Part shown: one piece after another, positions 17,630-24,998 of the stretch
Layout of the letters: every line of letters begins with the position of its first letter
How positions within the stretch are numbered: position 1 is the stretch's first letter
Source of the DNA: Candidatus Stoquefichus sp. SB1
GTDB taxonomy: Bacteria > Bacillota_I > Bacilli_A > Erysipelotrichales > Coprobacillaceae
Assembly: GCF_001244545.1 (NCBI RefSeq)
Contig: NZ_LN852694.1
Coordinates: forward strand, 378,172-442,171
Reading direction: 5' to 3'
Length of the DNA stretch: 64,000 bases
Notes under the pieces: model-generated
The model's database searches: none
Told to the model about the DNA's origin: nothing
What the model saw: only the letters and a program-made list of their open reading frames with translations
Position numbers and translations under genes: made by a program

Positions 17630-17633
17630 TGCT

Positions 17634-17845
17634 ACAAGCAATGATTTAGGATATGTTTCTATAAGCATCTTGTTAAGAGAGAAAACGGCTGGTGAAAGTT
17701 TTCCAGGATATATAGAAATACTCCCTAATAGCTACACTCGAAAGAGAATGTCGTGTTGTCGCGTTAAGACTTAGAGGTTATCGTAAGATAATGAATAAAG
17801 GTGGTACCACGAGATTTCGTCCTTTGGATGAAATCTCTTTTTTTT
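17634..17845 (+). ncRNA. T-box leader (threonine) controlling thrS
   Basis: tRNA-sensing riboswitch. Seen in order: AAGAGAGA and GGCTGGTGAAAG of Stem I; a specifier region around GCTACACTCG (17731-17740) that contains the Thr codons ACA and ACT; Stem III-like GTTATC-GTAA-GATAAT; and the T-box AAAGGTGGTACCACG at 17797-17811, which binds the uncharged tRNA 3' end in the antiterminator. A terminator follows at 17811-17845. Which exact triplet is the specifier I cannot fix without folding. The downstream gene thrS supports threonine. Confidence 0.93.
17811..17845 (+). terminator. T-box-regulated terminator
   Basis: GAGATTTCGTCC (17811-17822) pairs with GGATGAAATCTC (17826-17837), one G-U pair, loop of three, then eight Ts. 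Its 5' arm overlaps the end of the T-box sequence, so terminator and antiterminator are mutually exclusive. Confidence 0.93.
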
Positions 17846-23526: not shown

Positions 23527-23555
23527 GTATTGTAATTATTAAGTTAAGCAAGACC
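23527..23555 (+). promoter_or_regulatory. RAT element 1 (LicT/BglG antiterminator target)
   Basis: The 29 bases match the ribonucleic antiterminator consensus in layout. Upper stem pairs C10-G21, T11-A20, G12-C19 of the consensus are replaced by T-A, T-A and A-T, i.e. compensated. TTG/CAA in the lower stem and the flanking A residues are kept; one pair (position 2 with 28) is lost. Its 3' end overlaps the 5' arm of the terminator at 23551. Confidence 0.75.
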
Positions 23556-23597
23556 TGATTACATAATTATTTTTAATTATGCAATCAGGTCTTTTTA
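23551..23597 (+). terminator. RAT-controlled terminator before the EIIA gene
   Basis: A 19-bp stem with one mismatch (23551-23569 with 23574-23592), loop TTTT, then five Ts. It shares AGACC with RAT 1, so binding of the antiterminator protein would prevent it forming. Confidence 0.9.
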
Positions 23598-24897: not shown

Positions 24898-24940
24898 TAA
24901 GTATTGATGAATAGAAAGGAGGTGGGCAGTATCTTAAACT

Positions 24941-24968
24941 GGATAGTGACAGTACGGCTGGCTAGACC
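24941..24968 (+). promoter_or_regulatory. RAT element 2, before the EIIBC gene
   Basis: GGATAGTGACAG then CTGGCTAGACC fits the RAT consensus with the loop one base shorter. Pairs 10-21, 11-20 and 12-19 are C-G, A-T, G-C; lower-stem pairs 1-29, 2-28, 4-25, 5-24 (A-T, swapped against consensus) and 6-23 all hold. No terminator follows; instead its last two bases enter a hairpin that covers the ribosome site. Confidence 0.65.
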
Positions 24969-24998
24969 TTTATTTTAATAACTATATTAAAGTGGAGG
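24967..24998 (+). promoter_or_regulatory. Hairpin that sequesters the EIIBC ribosome binding site
   Basis: CCTTTATTTTAATA (24967-24980) can pair over all 14 positions, three of them G-U, with TATTAAAGTGGAGG (24985-24998), loop ACTA. The 3' arm contains the Shine-Dalgarno GTGGAGG of the ATG at 25008. There is no T tract, so this is not a terminator. The two bases at its foot also close RAT 2, making the structures compete. Confidence 0.5.

Follow-up and report, generated by a model that had tools for sequence, protein, structure and literature searches.

The analysed window is a stretch of 64,000 nucleotides from a Candidatus Stoquefichus genome of 3.59 Mb. It carries an apparent PTS operon in the order RAT 1 with its terminator, EIIA, LicT, RAT 2, EIIBC and a metallo-beta-lactamase (MBL)-fold hydrolase, the latter being the final gene (Table 1). 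The LicT protein consists of a CAT RNA-binding domain and two PRDs and scored barely above the NCBIfam LicT cut-off (306.7 bits against 300). For EIIBC, presumed to be the gene controlled by RAT 2, the top NCBIfam model was PTS-II-ABC-beta, with a score under the cut-off of that model. Elsewhere in the window, a T-box leader was found at positions 17632-17827 (Rfam RF00230, 98.2 bits).

Table 1. Features of the licT operon, with positions counted from the first nucleotide of the window (SD, Shine-Dalgarno; L001 and L002 are orthologous loci).
Feature	Position	Strand	Support
RAT 1, LicT-type antiterminator hairpin in the leader 5' of the EIIA gene	23527..23555	+	R1 covariance model, 36.3 bits
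Intrinsic terminator, hairpin and U-run, GACCUGAU.../...AUCAGGUC	23552..23596	+	Direct sequence reading
PTS EIIA, 148 aa	23615..24061	+	Pfam PTS_EIIA_1, 1.4e-50
LicT/BglG-family antiterminator, 275 aa	24070..24897	+	CAT_RBD 2.4e-21, PRD 2.4e-32
Orphan SD-like sequence AGAAAGGAGGTG, between the licT stop codon and RAT 2	24913..24924	+	12-nt match to the complement of the 16S 3' end
RAT 2, LicT-type, between licT and the EIIBC gene, GGATAGTGACAGTACGGCTGGCTAGACC	24941..24968	+	R1 38.5 bits; eight standard pairs
5' (anti-SD) hairpin arm	24967..24980	+	Folds; invariant in L001 and L002
3' hairpin arm, terminating in the ribosome site	24985..24998	+	Folds; nearly invariant in L001 and L002
SD GGAGG of the EIIBC gene	24994..24998	+	Direct reading; 9 nt 5' of ATG 25008
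PTS EIIBC, beta-glucoside type, 462 aa	25008..26396	+	PTS_EIIC 4.9e-24, PTS_EIIB 4.6e-14
Metallo-beta-lactamase-fold hydrolase, 271 aa	26405..27220	+	Lactamase_B 5.6e-12

Assignment to the LicT-type RATs was judged by structure, by gene neighbourhood and by the overlap of the 3' end with an intrinsic terminator. RAT 2 has the conserved RAT primary sequence and the expected three short stems and two asymmetric internal loops, and all eight canonical pairs are standard, with A-U at the positions where the textbook LicT RAT has U-A. Its neighbours also fit, with the CAT_RBD and PRD protein directly 5' and EIIBC directly 3' of it. Overlap with a terminator was met by RAT 1, whose final four bases belong to a hairpin followed by a T-run, but not by RAT 2, and for lack of this overlap RAT 2 was classed not as an antiterminator but as a RAT whose output differs. 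Both RAT sequences are themselves in the seed of the R1 covariance model, which also recovered independent relatives of RAT 2.

The last two bases of RAT 2, both C's, are at the same time the first two bases of a hairpin with exactly 14 pairs and a 4-nt loop (24967-24998), and the 3' arm of this hairpin covers the whole ribosome site of EIIBC. Two different segments were folded, and the hairpin occurred in both minimum-energy structures (z = -2.0 and z = -2.9); in the second, none of 200 shuffled sequences folded as well as the native one. None of 100 shuffles of the spacer between RAT and SD hid the ribosome site as well as the native spacer. Apart from two terminal G-C pairs, which are its only ones, the stem is rich in A-U and G-U pairs. 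These two pairs are made by the C's common to RAT 2 and contribute about half of the energy, which was -11.3 kcal/mol with them and -5.4 kcal/mol without. No U-tract follows the hairpin at this locus, where the next bases are AGAAAAAAG, so it is not an intrinsic terminator and this role was rejected. A first-pass annotation of the sequence had described RAT 1 as overlapping a classic terminator, and RAT 2 as an element that keeps all its stem pairs with compensating changes, has no terminator after it and gives its last two bases to a 14-pair hairpin across the ribosome site; all of these points were borne out.

In a translational switch, the stem that pairs with the SD should be mutually exclusive with the sensor structure and should have evolutionary support. 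The former was found by folding, in single-strand predictions that do not include the protein. At this locus the EIIBC SD was predicted to be unpaired with a fraction of 0.01 in free RNA and 0.43 when RAT 2 was forced, and the median SD exposure of 20 other genes in the window with a GGAGG site was 0.43. Across 47 collected elements, the median unpaired fraction was 0.014 in free RNA, 0.50 with the RAT forced and 0.43 with the spacer shuffled (Wilcoxon p = 7e-14 and 4e-11), and L057 and L069 were among the few elements without a predicted switch. Forcing the RAT cost 4.7 kcal/mol here, which agrees with the proposed competition in that the two structures do not coexist free of strain. The mean cost over the 47 elements was 5.5 kcal/mol against 7.8 kcal/mol for terminator-type RATs, indicating that the switch is no harder to operate than the classical one.

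The competition is narrow. The upper RAT stems coexist with the hairpin, and only the lower G-G/C-C stem competes with it. At this locus, the fold predicted for the RAT-bound state retains 12 of the 14 hairpin pairs, worth -5.4 kcal/mol, so the opening would be partial and would depend on ribosomes melting the weak A-U/G-U stem. The small shared part had been named as the weak point of the proposal, and we indeed confirmed just two pairs. This is the rule for the class, in which RAT and hairpin have a median of 2 bases in common, compared with 4 in terminator-type RATs. As a usual rule, a stem weaker than about -6 kcal/mol does little to hinder the ribosome site within it, and by this rule the loss of the two G-C pairs would take the stem across the threshold.

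Orthologous intergenic regions are present in Ca. Stoquefichus massiliensis (EIIBC 84% identical) and in a Thomasclavelia MAG (EIIBC 72% identical). RAT 2 and both hairpin arms are nearly letter-identical in these relatives while loop and flanks vary, and RAT 2 is conserved as strongly as the hairpin. RAT 1 and its terminator are likewise carried by both (orthologous loci L001 and L002). Since the arms are invariant across the three species, a covariation signal can come only from the wider class.

LicT loci were surveyed across 245 genomes of the order, and about 130 loci were scanned with the RAT covariance model. About 45 loci under 24 genus labels have one layout, namely a RAT with terminator, licT, a RAT with a hairpin against the ribosome site, and a beta-glucoside EII gene. 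The sites upstream of licT are mostly RATs with U-tailed terminators; those between licT and EII are often RATs without a U-tract and with the pattern CCUUC(A/G)...(U/C)GGAGG, in which the final CC of the RAT continues as CCUUC and pairs with GGAGG. A purely automatic split into terminator and translational types put some loci in the wrong group, and the lists were therefore checked by eye: L037, L066, L085, L093, L100 and L113 had been misplaced owing to short T-runs in loops, as had L035, L134, L152 and L104:502, which are real terminators. L037 is a second licT operon of the same genome, with a RAT and terminator 5' of licT and with a different RAT, GGGTGGTGACATTCAGTTGGCCAAACC, followed by CCUUCAU...AUGGAGG in the EII leader.

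A covariance model of the RAT together with the anti-SD hairpin (R2) matched at least 32 of the 245 genomes and at least 18 of 73 genera in the order, at least 12 of 395 genomes of the class and at least 11 of 344 genomes of the phylum sample; these counts are lower bounds because fast filters were used. Searches with strict filters revealed the element in one further family outside the order (L176, L177, L179 and L184), and prevalence outside Erysipelotrichales is likewise a lower bound. At L184:1501-1557, a textbook-like RAT (GGATTGTTACTG...CAGGCAAGACC) and then CCUUCAUGUU...AACAAUGGAGG lie directly 5' of the EII gene, with no licT immediately upstream of that gene, and L184 is possibly a purely translational, stand-alone RAT. 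BLAST against plasmids found the element in Enterococcus faecalis CP143580 (CCUUCAAA...UUUUUGGAGG), Ligilactobacillus salivarius (CCUUCAUUU...AAAUGGAGG) and Paenibacillus sp. 37. In these records LicT is annotated ahead of a beta-glucoside EIIABC, and a RAT with terminator lies 5' of licT.

Evolutionary support for the SD-hiding stem came from the covariation of its arms. In 33 non-redundant elements, the arms of the same element paired with -8.32 kcal/mol, compared with -5.85 +/- 0.25 kcal/mol for permuted arms, and none of 20,000 permutations was as good. With the CC/SD core left out, the values were -0.98 and 0.08 +/- 0.21, again with 0 of 20,000 permutations reaching the former. When one sequence was drawn per genus label (24 labels), z was -6.8 with p <= 0.001 in each of 200 draws, and beyond the core z was -4.0 with p <= 0.012. 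Most loci have an A:U pair adjoining the SD, but four (L025, L056, L064 and L068), which belong to three genera, have G:C at this position. Absence of the anti-SD arm from related genomes would have spoken against the initial proposal; the arm is kept, and the arms co-vary across the 24 genus labels.

Based on the above, we hold it to be highly likely that RAT 2 is a translational RAT, at which the binding of LicT frees the EIIBC ribosome site. The anatomy, the exclusivity through shared bases, the conservation, the covariation of the arms, the recurrent licT-EII context and the absence of a terminator were all demonstrated computationally. The binding of LicT to RAT 2, the direction of regulation (translation on), the identity of the sugar and the effect in the cell are inferred, without any experiment. 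As long as LicT is inactive, the nascent mRNA would form the hairpin and hide the ribosome site, the upper RAT stems being formed in the free RNA with the two C's held by the SD stem. In the presence of the inducing sugar, probably a beta-glucoside, LicT dimers would bind RAT 2 as the RNA emerges, before the 3' arm is made. Closure of the lower G-G/C-C RAT stem would then deprive the hairpin of the two C's, and with them of its G-C pairs and about half of its stability, which would open the ribosome site. LicT is reported to contact the two bulges and the intervening stem (PMC7430163, citing Yang 2002), so it should need the lower stem, which defines the first bulge.

With LicT active in the presence of the sugar, the logic would equal that of the terminator, in that sugar switches the transporter on. 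At RAT 1, the same LicT is expected to prevent transcription termination 5' of EIIA-licT, and a single regulator would thus gate the operon at two levels, transcription first and translation second. The translational gate would act on the transporter itself, which detects the sugar and, by analogy, renders LicT inactive. With slightly less confidence, we consider it probable that BglG/LicT-family proteins act beyond antitermination in general: in many Bacilli, a terminator-linked RAT before their own gene would be combined with a ribosome-site-linked RAT before the transporter, the latter being a dedicated and conserved class of translational switch (Erysipelotrichales, some Enterococcus, Ligilactobacillus, Paenibacillus and others).

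Between licT and RAT 2 lies an orphan SD-like sequence, with no start codon at a usable spacing from it, which may be a ribosome standby or mRNA-stabilising site. Such sequences resemble known stabilising 30S-binding sites, and SD-like matches of at least 7 nt occur in 20 of 45 licT-RAT spacers (L217, L121, L146, L052, L060, L037 and others), where about 2 were expected. The hairpin could act on mRNA stability instead of, or besides, translation. In one such scenario, RAT 2 and the hairpin would govern how the mRNA is processed or how stable it is, with the LicT-bound RAT, the stem and the orphan SD shielding or exposing the EIIBC portion once the transcript has been cut behind licT. We regard this scenario as unlikely, even though RNase III is reported to cleave within a RAT/terminator stem of nagY in E. 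faecalis (PMC12502629). The orphan SD is missing from many loci that keep the RAT and the anti-SD hairpin, including E. faecalis, L. salivarius, L058 and L085, and is thus not required for the RAT switch. Moreover, it is the ribosome site in particular that is paired, and the additional pairs co-vary with it, while a stability stem needs no GGAGG end.

Ordinary attenuation, in which the hairpin after RAT 2 would be a weak terminator or pause site and LicT an antiterminator, is very improbable already. It has precedents in the U-tailed terminator at the RAT between bglG and bglT of Clostridium acetobutylicum (PMC12628678) and in the terminated bglP RNA mapped in Streptococcus mutans (PMC1489936), and a few of the surveyed licT-EII sites, among them L054 and L144, are of terminator type, so both outputs coexist within the group. 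However, neither this locus nor the class has a U-tract (the 8 nt that follow the SD contain 1.7 T on average, against 6.5 at terminator runs), and beyond its two G-C pairs the stem is made largely of A-U and G-U pairs. Least plausible of all is a hairpin that constitutively brakes EIIBC translation beside a RAT 2 that is a relic or a LicT-titrating decoy, which would suit the overlap of only two bases and the persistence of most of the hairpin beside the formed RAT at this locus, but RAT 2 and the anti-SD stem co-occur with common terminal C's in most of the about 45 loci, and RAT 2 is as conserved as the hairpin, whereas a relic would degenerate and nothing would require a decoy to lie next to the ribosome site.

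Translational control through RAT 2 would build on a familiar system. The anatomy of the RAT and the CAT and PRD protein family are those of the LicT/BglG/SacY RATs of B. subtilis bglP/licS, E. coli bgl, S. mutans bglP and C. acetobutylicum bglGT. In the classical elements the RAT 3' end likewise competes with a downstream hairpin, and bglGT even has the same RAT-licT-RAT-EII order; in RAT 2, by contrast, the hairpin hides a ribosome site and lacks a U-tract, and the output would be translation instead of termination. The TRAP protein of B. subtilis, a single RNA-binding protein, governs attenuation of transcription as well as access to the ribosome site within one operon. LicT would resemble it in controlling both steps of one operon, but protein and RNA are unrelated, and TRAP represses through SD sequestration while LicT would activate by relieving it. 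Riboswitches and T-boxes offer a further parallel, in which one sensor RNA can be joined either to a terminator or to a hairpin that sequesters the SD (e.g. PMC11477304). RAT 2 differs from them in its sensor, which would be a RAT bound by a protein in place of an aptamer for a ligand or tRNA.

The bglG RNA motif of Rfam (RF03530) is found upstream of bglG/licT in Bacillota (PMC11477304) and is likewise tied to these operons, but lies before bglG and not between licT and EII. No relevant match, including RF03530, was obtained for this stretch of the window among 4227 Rfam families, and an Rfam scan of ten sampled related loci gave tRNAs only. RATs not associated with terminators have been noted in E. 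coli and B. subtilis, and it was suggested that they do more than antitermination (Gordon et al. 2015, cited in PMC12502629). They are similarly free of terminators, and the citing paper describes them only as lacking these, whereas the conserved, co-varying anti-SD structure reported here provides a specific mechanism. A translational RAT had been proposed as new; none was found in the open-access literature, where terminator-free RATs are already known. Subscription papers were mostly not covered, so novelty is likely and not certain.

Since the 1980s, antitermination by BglG at RATs has served as a standard example of how a protein controls transcription termination. A widespread, co-varying form that governs access of the ribosome would demonstrate that RATs, much like riboswitch aptamers, can be combined with either output and that one regulator is able to gate two steps of one operon. 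It would also offer a concrete, testable mechanism for the terminator-free RATs known from other bacteria, and synthetic biology in Gram-positive hosts would gain a ready-made translational ON switch under protein control.

Reading frames around the element were also inspected. The upstream SDs were rejected as starts of small open reading frames, as 15 of 19 are not followed by a start codon at a distance of 4-11 nt. A leader peptide through RAT 2, NW(I/V)VTVRLARPLF-stop, is open in the three orthologues and was rejected as well, for no start codon lies at a usable distance from the upstream SD and the frame is not kept at other loci; its conserved letters are explained by the RAT. At L060 alone, inspection by eye showed a start codon after the upstream GGAGG, with a frame that runs through the RAT and ends in a TAG overlapping the EII ribosome site. 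Two loci on the minus strand, L048 and L053, have a tandem pair of RATs in the interval from licT to EII (at 2459/2562 and 2461/2609, counted on the reversed locus), with the anti-SD hairpin (UCCUC...GGAGG) on the second RAT. At L054 and L055, a RAT at about 1446, 5' of licT, has no obvious terminator and a close ribosome site, and this RAT might provide translational autocontrol of licT.
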